In this document: positions 650-7,561 of the stretch, piece by piece
Layout: every line of letters begins with the position of its first letter
Position numbering within the stretch: the stretch's first letter is position 1
Source: Microcoleus sp. AS-A8
GTDB taxonomy: Bacteria > Cyanobacteriota > Cyanobacteriia > Cyanobacteriales > Coleofasciculaceae
Direction: 5' to 3'
DNA length: 64,000 nucleotides
Assembly (NCBI GenBank): GCA_039962225.1
Contig: JAMPKV010000001.1
Coordinates: forward strand, 496,001 to 560,000
The notes under the pieces: model-generated
Seen by the model: the letters and a program-made list of their open reading frames with translations, nothing else
Databases searched by the model: none
What the model was told of the DNA's origin: nothing
Translations under genes and position numbers: made by a program

Positions 650-3607
650 TTGGGCGAATCGCAACAGGCGCTTGCTGCTTACGAACAAGCATTGAAAATC
701 CAACAGGAAAGGCAGGATTTGGCTGGGCAAGCGAATATTCTCAACAGCATTGGCTCGCTCTACTTCTCGTTGGGTCAGTATCAGGAGGCGCTTGACTCTT
801 TTAACCAAGCGCTGGAACTCCAACAAGCAGCACAGGAAAATCTATCTGGAACAGAATCAGCCTTAAACCTTTCTCAGCAAGCTCTGATTCTCATGGGTAT
901 CGCTTCAACCTACACCTTTGGATTTAGCGATTATTCCAAAGCGCTGGACTCTTATAACCAAGCGCGATCGCTTTACCAAAAGGCGGGAAACCAATATGGC
1001 GAAGCGTCGCTTCTCCTCAACATCAGCTCTGTCTACAATCAATTGGGGGAAACGCAGAAAGCCCTCAACGTTTTAAATCAAGGACTCGTGATGTGGCGTG
1101 CCATTCCCGCTCCCGATAGGGAAGCTTTTACCCTCCGGAAAATCGCTGATATCTATCATTCAATGGGTCAGCCTCAGCAGGCGCTCGACGATTACAACCA
1201 AGCCCTAGATATCCAGCGTCGCGTGGACGATCGCACTCAAGAAGCCGTCACCCTCAACAGCATTGCTGAAGTCTACAAGTCCTTAGGGGATTATAAGCTT
1301 AGTATCGATACAAAGACCCAAGCACTAGAGATATTCAAAAGCATTGGCGATCGTACCCACCAAGCTGAAATCCTTGACGAGATTGGCATCCTCTACCAAG
1401 AAGTAAAAGAATATGAGAAGTCGCTGGAGTATCACAACCAAGCGCTGGCTCTGACGAGACAAAACGACGATTTCTCGCGGCAAGGCAGCATACTCGCCTC
1501 TATTGTTAGAGCGTATGAGTCATTGAAGGATTATCCCAAGGCGCTTGATGCCGCTAACCAAATCCTTGCACTGTCGCGCCAACAGAATAGCAGCTTTAGG
1601 GAAGCCATGTACTTCATTATGAGCGGCAGAGTGTATTCAGCATCGGGGGATTATCACAAAGCACTGGAATACACTAATAAGGCAGTGACTGGGTTCCAGA
1701 AGGTAGGGAATCGCCTAGCTGAAGCCAACGCCCTGTACAACCTGGGCAAGATCTACAATTCATTGAAGCAGTACGAAAAAGCGCTCTCAACCTACGATCG
1801 CGATCTAGCACTCAGGCGGATGTTGGGCGATCGCACAGGGGAAGCGCATACACTCTATAACGTAGCGATTACACAACGCGATAAGGGTAATCTCAACGAA
1901 GCCCGTACCCAAATCGAAGCAGCAATCAAAATCGTTGAGGATATACGCACCAGAGTCACCAGCCAACAACTGCGTACTTCCTACTTTGCCTCCGTGCAGA
2001 ATTACTACCAGTTCTACATCGACGTGCTGATGCAGTTGCACAAAAAAGAGCCTTCTATTGGGTACGATGCTCTAGCACTACACGCCTCGGAACGCGCCCG
2101 CGCCCGGAGTCTTTTGGAACTCCTAACCGAGGCTAATGCTGATATTCGGCAAGGAGTCGAGCCAAAGCTCTTAGAACAAGAGCGCACCTTGCTTTCAAAA
2201 CTCGATGCTGTGGAAAAACGCCGAATCGAGCTATTTAACGGACAATGGACTGACAAACAGGTAGAAGCGCTAGAAAAAGAGACGGCAGCACTGCTCACAG
2301 AGTATCGGCAAGTCCAGGAACAAATCCGTCGCACCAGTCCGCGCTATGCCGCACTGGCTCAGCCACAACCGCTTACCCTGGCAGAAATTCAGCAGCAGGT
2401 ACTCGATAACGACACGATGCTGTTGGAATACTCTTTAGGGGAAGAACGCAGCTATCTCTGGGCAGTGACTAAAACAGGCATCACTAGCTACGAATTGCCG
2501 AAACGCGAGGAGATTGAAACTGCTGCCAAGGAATTTTATCAGTTACTCAACAACCGAGACTATCACTTGGGAACGCAGAAAGGGTTTGGGGTTGAAGGGC
2601 ATCCAGGTTCCTCCGTCGATACCAACGAAGCCGCTACCAAGTTGAGTCAGATGCTCATCGCACCTGTGGCTGCACAATTGGGAAACAAGCGCTTACTTAT
2701 TGTTAGTGATGGTGCGTTGCAGTATGTGCCGTTCGGTGCACTGCCAGTACCAGGAACGCTAGGGGTAGGGGCACGACATGTCGTGCCCTTACTGGTTAAT
2801 CACGAAATCATCAACTTGCCCTCAGCCTCAACACTAGCCGTGTTGCGAAAGGAATTGAACGATCGCAAAAGTGCTGCTAAAGCGATCGCAGTTCTTGCCG
2901 ATCCTGTCTTTGGTACAAACGATCCGCGTCTTAAGTCAAGTTCGGGACAGGGTTCTGGTACGCAACCGGAAAACAGTAATATCAACCGCCGAGCCTTGGA
3001 GCGATCGGCTACAACAGCTAATGTTAGCTTTAATCGTTTACCCTTTAGCCGACAGGAAGCTGAGCAGATTTTGGCGCTAGTCCCTACAACGGAGCGAATG
3101 CAGGCGTTTGACTTTGCCGCCAATCGTGCGATCGCAACCAACCCTGAACTGCAAAACTATCGCATTGTTCATTTGGCGACTCACGGCATCCTGAATAGTA
3201 CGCAGCCAGAATTATCAGGAGTCGTGCTGTCGTTGGTGGATGAAAAAGGTACCCTGCAAAATGGTTTTTTACAACTGCGTGATATCTTCAACCTCAACCT
3301 GCCAGCGGAATTAGTTGTCCTGAGTGCTTGTGAAACCGGGCTGGGTAAGGAAGTCAGGGGAGAAGGATTGGTGGGCTTGACAAGAGGCTTTATGTATGCG
3401 GGTACTCCACGAGTGGTGGTGAGTTTGTGGAGTGTGAGCGATCGAGCCACATCGGAGCTGATGGTGAAATTTTACAAAAAAATGCTGCAAGATGGACTGA
3501 AACCAGCAGCCGCTTTGAGGGCAGCACAGATAGAAATGTGGCAACAAAAGCAATGGCAAGCCCCGTATTACTGGGCAGCTTTTACACTACAGGGCGAGTG
3601 GAGATAA
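650..3607 (+). CDS. TPR-CHAT domain protein (caspase-like protease), C-terminal part
   Basis: The first half (to about residue 440, counting from the TTG at 650) is a run of TPR units. A coiled segment follows, and then a CHAT domain of the caspase/separase clan. The catalytic dyad is visible: His845 in HLATHG and Cys894 in LSACETGLG, followed by the usual RGFMYAGTPRVVVSLW strand and helix. CHAT proteases cleave protein targets, and TPR arms usually bind the partner or sense a signal. In the intact frame this would be the C-terminal three quarters of a longer protein that begins before the window. The frame upstream is interrupted by TAA at 581-583. The TTG is only the earliest possible restart and may not be used. 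The protease domain itself looks intact, so the disruption may be recent. Confidence 0.8.
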   Translation: MGESQQALAAYEQALKIQQERQDLAGQANILNSIGSLYFSLGQYQEALDSFNQALELQQAAQENLSGTESALNLSQQALILMGIASTYTFGFSDYSKALDSYNQARSLYQKAGNQYGEASLLLNISSVYNQLGETQKALNVLNQGLVMWRAIPAPDREAFTLRKIADIYHSMGQPQQALDDYNQALDIQRRVDDRTQEAVTLNSIAEVYKSLGDYKLSIDTKTQALEIFKSIGDRTHQAEILDEIGILYQEVKEYEKSLEYHNQALALTRQNDDFSRQGSILASIVRAYESLKDYPKALDAANQILALSRQQNSSFREAMYFIMSGRVYSASGDYHKALEYTNKAVTGFQKVGNRLAEANALYNLGKIYNSLKQYEKALSTYDRDLALRRMLGDRTGEAHTLYNVAITQRDKGNLNEARTQIEAAIKIVEDIRTRVTSQQLRTSYFASVQNYYQFYIDVLMQLHKKEPSIGYDALALHASERARARSLLELLTEANADIRQGVEPKLLEQERTLLSKLDAVEKRRIELFNGQWTDKQVEALEKETAALLTEYRQVQEQIRRTSPRYAALAQPQPLTLAEIQQQVLDNDTMLLEYSLGEERSYLWAVTKTGITSYELPKREEIETAAKEFYQLLNNRDYHLGTQKGFGVEGHPGSSVDTNEAATKLSQMLIAPVAAQLGNKRLLIVSDGALQYVPFGALPVPGTLGVGARHVVPLLVNHEIINLPSASTLAVLRKELNDRKSAAKAIAVLADPVFGTNDPRLKSSSGQGSGTQPENSNINRRALERSATTANVSFNRLPFSRQEAEQILALVPTTERMQAFDFAANRAIATNPELQNYRIVHLATHGILNSTQPELSGVVLSLVDEKGTLQNGFLQLRDIFNLNLPAELVVLSACETGLGKEVRGEGLVGLTRGFMYAGTPRVVVSLWSVSDRATSELMVKFYKKMLQDGLKPAAALRAAQIEMWQQKQWQAPYYWAAFTLQGEWR

Positions 3608-3883: not shown

Positions 3884-4780
3884 ATGACTGATTGCATTGA
3901 ACACGTCATTGAGCCACATATTCAAGATCTGGGCGGATTTCAAGCCCGTCGCCTTCTTCCCTCAGATGTTGTGACACTGGTAGGCCCGTTCATCTTTTTC
4001 GATCATCTCGGACCTGCGGTATTTCCACCAGGCAAGGGCGTTGATGTCAGACCCCATCCCCATATCAACCTGGCAACAGTTACCTACCTGTTTGAGGGAG
4101 TTTTGTTGCATCGCGATAGTGTGGGCAGTGTTCAGGAAATACATCCGGGTGCCGTGAACTGGATGACGGCAGGGCGAGGAATTGTTCACTCAGAACGGAC
4201 ACCTGAGCATGTGCGGACTCAAGAAGCCACCCTGCACGGAATCCAAACTTGGATAGCACTTCCTGATGAACATGAGGAAACAGACCCCTGGTTCCGGCAT
4301 CATCCGGCAACTGATCTGCCGACTTGGGAAGATGCAGGAGTTTCATTTACACTGATTGCGGGAGAAGCGTATGGTCGTACTTCTCCAGTACAAACGTTTT
4401 CTCCCATGATTTATTTAGATGTGCAACTGTCTGCCGGAGCGCAGTTTACCTTACCAAGCAATTACACTGAGCAAGCGGTTTACAGCGTAACTGAAGGATT
4501 GCTTGTTAATGGTGTCCCTCTGGAGCAACATCGGTTAGCAGTTCTGACTCCAGGTACATCGATAGATATCTCTTGCGAACGCAATGCTCGCTGTATTGTG
4601 GTTGGAGGTGAATCTGTAGGTAAGCGCCATAAGTGGTGGAATTTGGTCTCCAGCCGCCTCGATCGCATTGAGCAAGCGAAGCAGGATTGGAGAGAGGGAC
4701 GGTTTGAGCAGGTTCCTGATGAAACAGAATTCATTCCATTACCAGAAGAATCGAATCCCAAAGAAGGACAACCGCTATAG
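3884..4780 (+). CDS. Pirin family protein
   Basis: A bicupin of the pirin family, 298 residues. The metal ligands of the N-terminal cupin are present: His58 and His60 in RPHPHIN, His102 and Glu104 in GIVHSER, matching His56/His58/His101/Glu103 of human pirin. The stretch NWMTAGRGIVHSER is the family signature, and the C-terminal cupin is present. Bacterial pirins bind iron; some act as quercetin dioxygenases or modulate metabolic enzymes. The substrate here is not predictable. The gene stands alone, 276 bp after the CHAT gene and convergent with the histidine kinase. Confidence 0.9.
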   Translation: MTDCIEHVIEPHIQDLGGFQARRLLPSDVVTLVGPFIFFDHLGPAVFPPGKGVDVRPHPHINLATVTYLFEGVLLHRDSVGSVQEIHPGAVNWMTAGRGIVHSERTPEHVRTQEATLHGIQTWIALPDEHEETDPWFRHHPATDLPTWEDAGVSFTLIAGEAYGRTSPVQTFSPMIYLDVQLSAGAQFTLPSNYTEQAVYSVTEGLLVNGVPLEQHRLAVLTPGTSIDISCERNARCIVVGGESVGKRHKWWNLVSSRLDRIEQAKQDWREGRFEQVPDETEFIPLPEESNPKEGQPL

Positions 4781-4921: not shown

Positions 4922-7561
4922 TCAAAATTCTCGAATAATACCAGAACTAAAACTTGAGGAAATGGGAATAACCTCGTTGATCGTTTTTAATAAGTCGGTT
5001 GTTGTGTAGGGCTTCGCCAAAAAAGCTTGAGCGCCAGAGCTCGTGGATTGAGTCAGTCGAGTGCTGGATATAAGGCCACTAACCGCAATAATCTTGACCT
5101 GAGAATTGATTTTCTTCAAGGTGCGGATTGTCGTTGCTCCATCCATCAAGGGCATCATCATATCAACCAACACTAGGCTAATTTCATGCTGATGTTGGGC
5201 GTATAACGAGATCGCATCAATTCCATCATTTGCTGTAAGTACCCGATAGTTGTAAGTTTCCAACGAAGTTTTAGTCGTTTCACGAATCGCCGCTTCGTCA
5301 TCCACCACTAAAATTAATTCCCCCTGTCCTTGTGAGAATTCACTATCTGAAATTTGGGGAATTTGGGTTGCCTCGCTTGCAGGTAAGTAAACAGAAATTT
5401 GTGTTCCTTCGTCTACCTTACTTGTCACCTCCAAAAATCCACCGTGGCTTTTCACAATAGACAGTACAGTTGAAAGTCCTAATCCCGTGCCTTTACCTAG
5501 CTCTTTTGTGGTGAAAAATGGCTCAAAGATTCGCTCCATAACTTCAGGAGGCATACCGATTCCCGTATCTTTAACGGTGAACACCACATAAGCTCCCACA
5601 TGAGCATCAAGATTCATTCGCGCATAACTTTCATCGATGACAATATTGCCAGCACTTACACTCAAAGTGCCGCCTCTTGGCATAGCATCACGAGCATTAA
5701 CACACAGATTAATTAAAACCTGATGTAGCTGTGTCGCATCTCCAGAAACTATCCATAGATCTTGCGAAATATCTGTATTAATTTCAAGGGATTTAGGAAA
5801 TGTCTCGTTGACAATTTGCCGAATTTCTGAAATTAAATGTTTCAGTTGAATAGCTGTCCGCTGACCTTCGACACCCCGAGCAAATGATAAAACTTGCTTG
5901 ACCAAAGCCGCCCCACGTTTAGCACTACTTTCAATAGTCTTTAGCAGCTCTGGCTTCTTTTTCTCCGAGAGTTGGGTCTGTGAAAGCAGTTGAGCCGACA
6001 TCAGAATGGGTGCCAGCACATTGTTTAAGTCATGGGCGATGCCGCTAGCAAGAGTACCGATACTATCTAATCGTTGAGTACGAAGAAACTGGGCTTCAAG
6101 TTGTTTTCTTTCGGTAATATCAGTATTAACAACTAAGAAGGCTTTGGGTTTATCCTCCTCATCGTACATCAGCGTCCAGCGACTTTCGACAAGGATTTTT
6201 TTGCCATCTTTCCTAACTTGATGCAACTCACTCTGCCAATTGCCTTTCATCGCAACGGTTGAAAGAACGGCTGCCAGTTGAGGCGTTTTTTCTTCGTTCA
6301 ACAGAGGTTGAGCCTTCTTGCCAAAGGCTTCTTCTGCCTGCCAGCCGTATAATCGACTCGCTCCTTGGTTCCAAAATAAGATTTGGTCTTGTAAATCTCG
6401 CACCAGAATAGCGTCGGTTGTGATGTCGAGCAGAGCCGCTTGGAAACGAATTTTCTCTTCAGCCTGTTTGCGTTCGGTGATATCAGTCTGAATACCAATA
6501 AAGTAAAGTAAATCGCCTTGCTCTGAGAAGACGGGCGAGATTTTCAACTCGTTCCAGAAAGGCTGACCATTTTTACGATAGTTCAGCAGCGTCGCTTTCA
6601 CTTCTTGTCGTTGGGCGATCGCATTACGAATCGATCTCAGGGCTTCTGAGTCAGTCTCTGCACCCTGCAAGAAACGACAGTTGCGACCAAAAATCTCTTC
6701 GGGTTGATAGCCGGTAATCCGCGAAAAAGCTGGGTTTGAGTAAATAATCGGGTTGCCAGGTTGGTTTGGATCGGTGATCAAAACCCCATCAGAGACGGAG
6801 GCGATCGCACGGGCAAGTCGCAGATTCTCTACTGCTGCCTTCCGCAACTCCTGTTGATGATGCTGTCGCAGAGCGTTGGCTGCCAACTGTTCCGCCCAAC
6901 TACGTTGTTCTAGCTTGGCTCTTTCCCAGTAGTTTTTGAAGAAGTCAGCCAAACCTGGCTCTTCTTTAACCAAAGCATCAAAATGAGCGATCGCTCGCTT
7001 GTCAGCTAAATAACTTACTTCCGGATGGGCTTCCATCCACATATGACAGCTTTTTACGTAAGCGATAAACGTCACTAAATGCTGGTAGTTTACACAACCC
7101 AACAGACGCCGCAACTCCCTACGGCAATGTTCAGCTTGGTCTCGTTCCTGGGCAATAAAAATTGAGCAATACAGTAAACTATTTTCTAGTGTTGAGTTCT
7201 CCTGTGGCCATAGTGTTAGGCCATTTAGCTGCGTCGCTAGCAAACTCAGGTGTTTATCAATATCTATTTGACTTGGGAGAGGCGATTCAAGTAGCTCCAA
7301 CACCTCCCGTGCCTGCATTCCTAAGGAATACAAGGAACAACTGTGACAAATCATGCAATAAGGAACAACACAGAAGCGCGAGAGGTAAGCAGAAAGCTTT
7401 TCCTTAAATAGATCGGGTAGCGGATTATTGAGATAGGCATACATTGTCTGATGCCATAAATTTTCTAGCACCTGTGGAGTCTGTAGTGCCGGACTAAAGA
7501 AGGGTGGAAAAAAGCCCAGCTTTTCCGCAATTTCTGCCTTGATCTGTTCGCTTGTTCGCAT
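4922..7561 (-). CDS. AhpD-like/LOV/PAS hybrid histidine kinase with receiver domain
   Basis: 879 residues. Residues 1-180 look like an AhpD/carboxymuconolactone decarboxylase-type helical domain with a CxxC-His (Cys69, Cys72, His73). Residues about 247-362 are a full LOV domain: GRNCRFLQG with the flavin-adduct Cys295, NYRKNGQPFWN, and YFIGIQTD with the flavin-contacting Gln. A second PAS follows (about 370-485), then HisKA with phospho-acceptor His510 (GIAHDLNN), HATPase_c with N box (NLCVNARDAM), G1 (DTGIGM) and G2 (GKGTGLGLS), and a C-terminal receiver with Asp800 (VLVDMMMP). It should be a cytosolic blue-light-sensing hybrid kinase, with no membrane segment seen. The CxxC domain suggests an additional redox input (inference). 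No cognate output regulator lies next to it. Confidence 0.92.
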   Translation of the reverse strand: MRTSEQIKAEIAEKLGFFPPFFSPALQTPQVLENLWHQTMYAYLNNPLPDLFKEKLSAYLSRFCVVPYCMICHSCSLYSLGMQAREVLELLESPLPSQIDIDKHLSLLATQLNGLTLWPQENSTLENSLLYCSIFIAQERDQAEHCRRELRRLLGCVNYQHLVTFIAYVKSCHMWMEAHPEVSYLADKRAIAHFDALVKEEPGLADFFKNYWERAKLEQRSWAEQLAANALRQHHQQELRKAAVENLRLARAIASVSDGVLITDPNQPGNPIIYSNPAFSRITGYQPEEIFGRNCRFLQGAETDSEALRSIRNAIAQRQEVKATLLNYRKNGQPFWNELKISPVFSEQGDLLYFIGIQTDITERKQAEEKIRFQAALLDITTDAILVRDLQDQILFWNQGASRLYGWQAEEAFGKKAQPLLNEEKTPQLAAVLSTVAMKGNWQSELHQVRKDGKKILVESRWTLMYDEEDKPKAFLVVNTDITERKQLEAQFLRTQRLDSIGTLASGIAHDLNNVLAPILMSAQLLSQTQLSEKKKPELLKTIESSAKRGAALVKQVLSFARGVEGQRTAIQLKHLISEIRQIVNETFPKSLEINTDISQDLWIVSGDATQLHQVLINLCVNARDAMPRGGTLSVSAGNIVIDESYARMNLDAHVGAYVVFTVKDTGIGMPPEVMERIFEPFFTTKELGKGTGLGLSTVLSIVKSHGGFLEVTSKVDEGTQISVYLPASEATQIPQISDSEFSQGQGELILVVDDEAAIRETTKTSLETYNYRVLTANDGIDAISLYAQHQHEISLVLVDMMMPLMDGATTIRTLKKINSQVKIIAVSGLISSTRLTQSTSSGAQAFLAKPYTTTDLLKTINEVIPISSSFSSGIIREF

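Follow-up and report, generated by a model that had tools for sequence, protein, structure and literature searches.

Our best reading of the kinase gene studied here is that its N-terminal domain (NTD) is an undescribed sensory input domain with the fold of AhpD, one that has been shuffled into place ahead of photosensors and other kinds of module. The gene lies in the window, by which we mean the whole 64,000-nucleotide stretch that was analysed. The NTD family is the main object of interest, and its fusion to a blue-light LOV domain is one recurrent form. We give a probability of roughly 60% to the full statement that the protein is a hybrid histidine kinase with two stacked inputs, in which the NTD acts as an AhpD-fold sensor and, in most of its family, not as an AhpD-type peroxidase. 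With this reading, a fold, a residue signature, and a pocket open to testing would be assigned to an input domain that dozens of cyanobacterial genomes carry and that no Pfam or NCBIfam model covers. Among the matches listed in the open-licence literature, titles and abstract starts revealed no AhpD/carboxymuconolactone decarboxylase (CMD) domain in signalling, and a word search of PMC6798134, which reviews photoreceptor histidine kinases, returned no AhpD, carboxymuconolactone, or peroxid. Within that scope, the statement of an earlier note on this DNA that the architecture was not known as described still stands.

Layout of the kinase and its LOV domain

The minus-strand reading frame starts with ATG and encodes a product of 879 amino acids (Table 1). 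Pfam detected two PAS domains, HisKA, HATPase_c, and a receiver in this product, while the residues before 248 had no match. The last three domains all scored above their curated cut-offs, identifying the protein as a hybrid histidine kinase. In the one second genome of the same genus that was searched, the whole protein is kept, with 91% identity over the first 380 amino acids, and the NTD recurs at 55–68% identity in 44 other places. This conservation indicates that the NTD is not a chance feature.

Table 1. Features of the kinase gene, with positions in the window
Feature	Position	Strand	Basis
Whole gene, hybrid sensor kinase NTD-LOV-PAS-HisKA-HATPase-receiver, 879 aa	4922..7561	(-)	ORF and Pfam
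NTD (N-terminal AhpD-fold domain), about residues 1-215	6917..7561	(-)	AlphaFold2 model, VIA-align, hhalign
Glu54, on AhpD relay Glu	7400..7402	(-)	Glu in 100/102 rows; alignments
Cluster Cys64-x4-Cys69-x2-Cys72-His73-x-Cys75, residues 64-75; Val66 at AhpD first catalytic Cys	7337..7372	(-)	Alignments
Cys172-His173-x-Trp175 motif, NTD second half	7037..7048	(-)	Row alignment
Predicted helix 202-254 between NTD and LOV	6800..6958	(-)	Low confidence; block-mean pLDDT 44-69, residues 211-260
LOV domain, residues 255-363	6473..6799	(-)	Pfam PAS, signature, PDB matches, model
Cys295 codon (putative flavin adduct) inside GRNCRFLQ	6677..6679	(-)	Sequence motif
Second PAS, residues 376-482, GKKAQPLL, without LOV signature	6116..6436	(-)	Pfam and motif
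HisKA, residues 502-563; phospho-acceptor His510 in HDLNN	5873..6058	(-)	Pfam and motif
HATPase_c, residues 607-729; boxes DTGIGM, GTGLGLS	5375..5743	(-)	Pfam and motif
C-terminal receiver, residues 750-861; acceptor Asp800 by motif	4979..5314	(-)	Pfam and motif

Judged by its sequence, the first PAS domain is an orthodox LOV domain. The motif GRNCRFLQ occupies residues 292–299, which places the adduct cysteine at Cys295, and Asn294, Gln299, Asn327, Asn337, and Gln358 are all present. The domain thus unites the PAS fold, GxNCRFLQ, and the flavin-contact Asn, Asn, and Gln that mark a LOV photoreceptor. These results agree with the earlier note, which had reported a full LOV signature with Cys295 and flavin-contacting Asn and Gln positions and had called the protein a LOV hybrid kinase. 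Against solved structures, the LOV part matched LOV chains with a best E of 2.4e-35; it matched 136 distinct solved sequences at E ≤1e-10, and LOV proteins topped the best 60 of the 136. The predicted model of residues 1–380 superposed on several LOV structures at 0.6 Å over 105 residues (Z ~20.6). Brucella LOV-HK and the YtvA-FixL fusion (4gcz) likewise carry a full-signature LOV domain upstream of a histidine kinase, but the window protein also begins with an AhpD-fold domain and ends with a receiver, neither of which those two proteins are known to carry.

Fold and residue signature of the N-terminal domain

The proposal that the N-terminus is an AhpD-like helical domain was upheld by structure and profile–profile comparison, although no curated sequence model recognizes it. 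None of the 45 NTD members matched CMD (PF02627) at E up to 1, other Pfam models gave only a few weak matches (best E 0.023, ≤2 members each), the NCBIfam search of the window NTD returned nothing at E up to 1, and a phmmer search of the NTD against the PDB did not support AhpD membership. The sequence models for CMD, AhpD, and TIGR01926 therefore do not place the NTD among AhpD-like proteins. By contrast, the AlphaFold2 model built from the 45 relatives (pLDDT 89.1) is all helical, with the helical fold of AhpD as predicted. The first 26 Foldseek rows were AhpD or CMD proteins at probabilities of 0.95–1.00, with E-values of 1e-2 and worse. The top 13 VIA-align rows were also all AhpD/CMD, running from Z 14.3 (3c1l) to 11.6 ahead of an unrelated row at 9.4, with the caveat that helical models can attain Z 14 by chance. 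The closest structures by this measure (3c1l, 2pfx, 2prr, and 6k40) are all AhpD-like, and Mycobacterium tuberculosis AhpD itself reached a Z of only 6.9. Because such scores can arise by chance, sequence support for AhpD homology was sought.

An NTD profile (A1, which excludes L044 for its internal stop) matched a TIGR01926 protein of the window's own genome, L001, at E 2.8e-10 (best domain 3.7e-8) among 260 ORFs from 20 loci chosen for AhpD-like genes. Only three distinct proteins among these ORFs matched at E up to 10 (L001, L163, and L161), and L001 was absent from the results of the A1 genome searches of the phylum and order sets. In hhalign, the NTD profile aligned with nine cyanobacterial AhpD-like proteins (profile A2, from 9 of 19 AhpD-like loci) over 82 columns, at probability 92 and E 6.5e-7. 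When A1 was run against the PDB, two C4HR1_4r chains and one NUP58 outranked AhpD 2ouw (E 0.39) and 6k40 (E 1.0), so this search proves nothing alone, and only its agreement in register was used. On the predicted fold together with the profile–profile comparison, we accept that the NTD is homologous to the AhpD-like superfamily.

Three alignments to AhpD-like proteins (A1-PDB, A1-ORF, and profile–profile) agree on one gap-free register at the motif. Glu54 coincides with the relay Glu, Cys69 with the second Cys, Tyr68 with the residue just before it, and His73 with the His, while Val66 occupies the position of AhpD's first Cys, meaning that the CxxC of the NTD is displaced by one helical turn. 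The corresponding residues, according to excerpts of PMC3141380, are Glu118, His132, Cys133, His137, and first Cys Cys130 in M. tuberculosis AhpD and Glu36, Tyr50, Cys51, His55, and first Cys Cys48 in PA0269, with both sets of numbers transferred by motif spacing, not by direct alignment. The same excerpts term Cys48, Cys51, and His55 invariant in PA0269's family and, because TTHA0727 has Ser in place of the first Cys, infer that it lacks peroxidase activity.

The CxxC-His described previously is indeed present, as C69-M-I-C72-H73, but the “peroxidase-like” function drawn from it is not supported by the register. Catalytic AhpD carries Cys130, Cys133, Glu118, and His137; the window protein has the equivalents of the last three, with Val66 at the first, and position 66 is Cys in 0 of the 102 rows covering the region. 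The cysteines themselves vary: Cys64 is kept in 91, Cys69 in 83, Cys72 in 92, and Cys75 in 95 of 102 rows, and their joint patterns are CCCC in 75 rows, xxCC in 10, CxCC in 7, CCxx in 6, CCxC in 2, CxxC in 1, and none in 1. Where Cys69 is lost (19/102), Glu54 and His73 are both retained in 17 of the 19. Glu54 (100/102), Tyr68 (101/102), and His73 (100/102) are nearly constant, as are Cys172 (95/103), His173 (99/103), and Trp175 (103/103) in the second half of the domain. Since Glu-Tyr-His and His-x-Trp are better kept than the cysteines, a binding pocket is favoured first and thiol chemistry second.

Overall, the NTD shares with the AhpD/peroxidase-related proteins (TIGR01926, CMD PF02627) the helical fold and the Glu-Tyr-Cys-His relay positions. 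Unlike them, it lacks the first catalytic Cys, has no curated model, occurs in signalling proteins, and bears additional Cys64, Cys72, and Cys75 and His173-x-Trp175, which are peculiar to the NTD family. The AhpD guess is thus correct in fold and wrong in chemistry, and AhpD-type peroxidase action across the family is unlikely from these residues.

Distribution and partner modules

Among genomes sampled from the phylum, at least 10 of 386 carry the NTD, as do at least 50 of 388 from the order; both figures are lower bounds because at most seven candidates were scored per genome. Our comparison covered 105 NTD rows, window included, from the phylum and order genomes, 45 GTDB species-set loci, and one plasmid; some are fragments, and duplicates were removed only when identical or contained. 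Domain strings came from small home-made profiles that missed some domains (Pfam showed a GGDEF in L072 and the acyltransferase and glycosyltransferase of L073 and L127), and any domain in front of the NTD is invisible in these strings because rows were trimmed to the NTD start.

A count of the NTD-LOV architecture, which the earlier note had suggested, revealed it to be recurrent but not unique to the window. In 12 of 105 rows, an intact LOV domain immediately follows the NTD (11 by a first pattern, with L074 added by profile). Eight of these, including the window and its same-genus partner, read NTD-LOV-PAS-HisKA-HATPase-receiver, and four have other strings. The remaining 93 rows, some of them fragments, have no intact LOV behind the NTD, indicating that the NTD is not LOV-specific. 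Two of these carry a Cys-less LOV-like domain in that place (Trp in L127, Phe in L073). In 21 rows a GAF domain comes first, with a bilin-type Cys-His in 18 (17 under a stricter Cys-His pattern), and the one GAF tested, from L003, matched the phycocyanobilin-binding structure 6oap at E 1.6e-61 with its Cys-His aligned. This structure is PPHK, as given in an excerpt of PMC11480761. Sister proteins reading NTD-GAF-PAS-HK-receiver, comparable to cyanobacteriochrome kinases and PPHK, exist, and in the window protein LOV occupies the slot that GAF takes in these sisters. The NTD leads directly into GGDEF-EAL in seven rows by the home-made profiles, with L019 confirmed by Pfam, and directly into HisKA in L120 (494 aa), where no other input domain was found. 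By the home-made profiles, a kinase is present in 81 of 105 rows.

On a quick tree of 100 of the 105 rows (fragments L150 [two], L153 [two], and L154 omitted), the LOV label of the 12 LOV rows needs 7 changes, with many deep forks weak; a tree with 11 LOV rows gave 6 label changes, at least 2 of them forced by starred branches. A single LOV-fusion event is therefore not supported. Together with the variety of LOV, GAF, PAS, GGDEF-EAL, and HisKA behind the NTD, the 7 changes suggest that the module in this position has often been exchanged. Some proteins have another domain before the NTD: reading frames of at least 50 residues run ahead of it in 9 of 104 rows, and a GAF precedes it in L068 (3934–4533, +) and L122 (245–844, +), the two being 88% identical there. 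By eye, ~76 residues before the NTD in the L102 gene resemble the tail of such a GAF.

Several other members were observed along the way. In L073 (3170–7186, +) and L127 (2039–6067, −), a single protein of ~1340 aa joins the NTD and the Cys-less LOV-like PAS to an acyltransferase and a glycosyltransferase, both seen with Pfam, with L073 weakly PgaC/CelA-like; from their sequences these are possibly signal-gated exopolysaccharide synthases. In Nostoc indistinguendum (L029), a pair of NTD-GGDEF-EAL genes lies within ~6 kb, one on each strand (1273–3420, +; 5007–7259, −). A Pseudomonas plasmid (L063; 3959–4741, +) carries a stand-alone NTD homologue with 29% identity; it is annotated as hypothetical and sits amid genes for sensor kinases and response regulators.

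Proposed signal integration and genomic setting

The kinase is probably soluble. Blue light would form the Cys295-flavin adduct, and the resulting change would reach the kinase by way of the PAS domain and the helical linkers, with the phosphoryl group passing from His510 to Asp800 or onward; for both steps we draw on the intact signatures and the known behaviour of LOV kinases. The NTD probably provides a second sensory input, perhaps linked to LOV through the long predicted helix, and would bias the same kinase. Its signal is probably a small molecule or redox state, read at a pocket of Glu54, Tyr68, and His73, to which His173-Trp175 from the second helical half possibly contributes. We read it as an input because of its position in these proteins and because in L120 it stands directly before HisKA. 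The two foremost candidates for what it senses are a ligand bound in the pocket and redox state, and it may respond to peroxide or thiols. Support for this reading is slightly reduced by the NTD not always being the first domain and by profile evidence drawn from few proteins; moreover, all four cysteines persist in 75 of 102 rows, as would be expected of a thiol function more than of a purely structural one.

That count also favours a more specific, tentative alternative, in which the NTD would sense peroxide or thiol state: Cys69 would form a reversible disulfide with Cys64 or Cys72, His73 and Glu54 assisting, and the kinase would integrate oxidative state with blue light, in line with the joint sensing of light and peroxide or thiol state suggested in the earlier note. 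The NTD fills four of the five positions of the AhpD relay, and Cys64, Cys69, Cys72, Cys75, Glu54, Tyr68, and His73 are all retained in 11 of the 12 LOV rows. However, the twelfth (L074) has Leu54, Pro69, and Tyr73, the first AhpD Cys is absent throughout, as in TTHA0727, and Glu54 and His73 mostly persist where Cys69 is lost. The same four clustered cysteines with His73, plus Cys172-His173, could suggest that haem, a metal, or an iron-sulfur cluster is bound in the pocket, making the NTD a sensor of metal, oxygen, or NO, and C69-M-I-C72-H73 can be read as a CxxCH motif. We consider this unlikely, as relatives lack the cysteines in various combinations yet mostly retain His73. Covalent c-type haem attachment happens outside the cytosol, and the first predicted helix begins at residue 4, leaving no space for an export signal before the NTD, so the CxxCH reading was set low.

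An NTD that serves dimerisation or partner docking, with no signal of its own, would be in keeping with the oligomeric nature of AhpD-like proteins, with the hexamer of PA0269 in the crystal (reported in an excerpt of PMC3141380), and with the stand-alone plasmid copy among kinase and response-regulator genes. Yet the polar Glu54, Tyr68, His73, His173, and Trp175 are near-invariant, and L120 would become a kinase without any sensor found, which makes such a role improbable. Returning to the sensor reading, a broader and still doubtful extension is that cyanobacteria have repeatedly placed this undescribed domain before LOV or bilin GAF photosensors, creating coincidence detectors of light and intracellular redox state whose outputs are kinases, cyclic-di-GMP enzymes, and an exopolysaccharide-type synthase. 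If the NTD does sense redox, light and photo-oxidative state would be joined within single proteins, which would help in asking how phototrophs separate useful from harmful light.

Convergent with the kinase gene is a gene (window 3884–4780) that, by its sequence, appears to belong to the pirin family. The same-genus locus L174 (19.9 kb) retains the CHAT/TPR and ROK neighbours of the kinase gene; the pirin neighbour had no match there, and xylulokinase matched only as a 46-residue piece. At nine other LOV loci, no window neighbour was found at E 1e-15. On this small test, we rejected an operon with the window neighbours. The TIGR01926 AhpD-like protein of the window's genome (L001/L158) has Ser/Ala at the two catalytic Cys positions and keeps the His, and AhpD-like matches in genomes of the phylum (L155, L156, and L159) each contain a single in-frame TGA that may encode selenocysteine.
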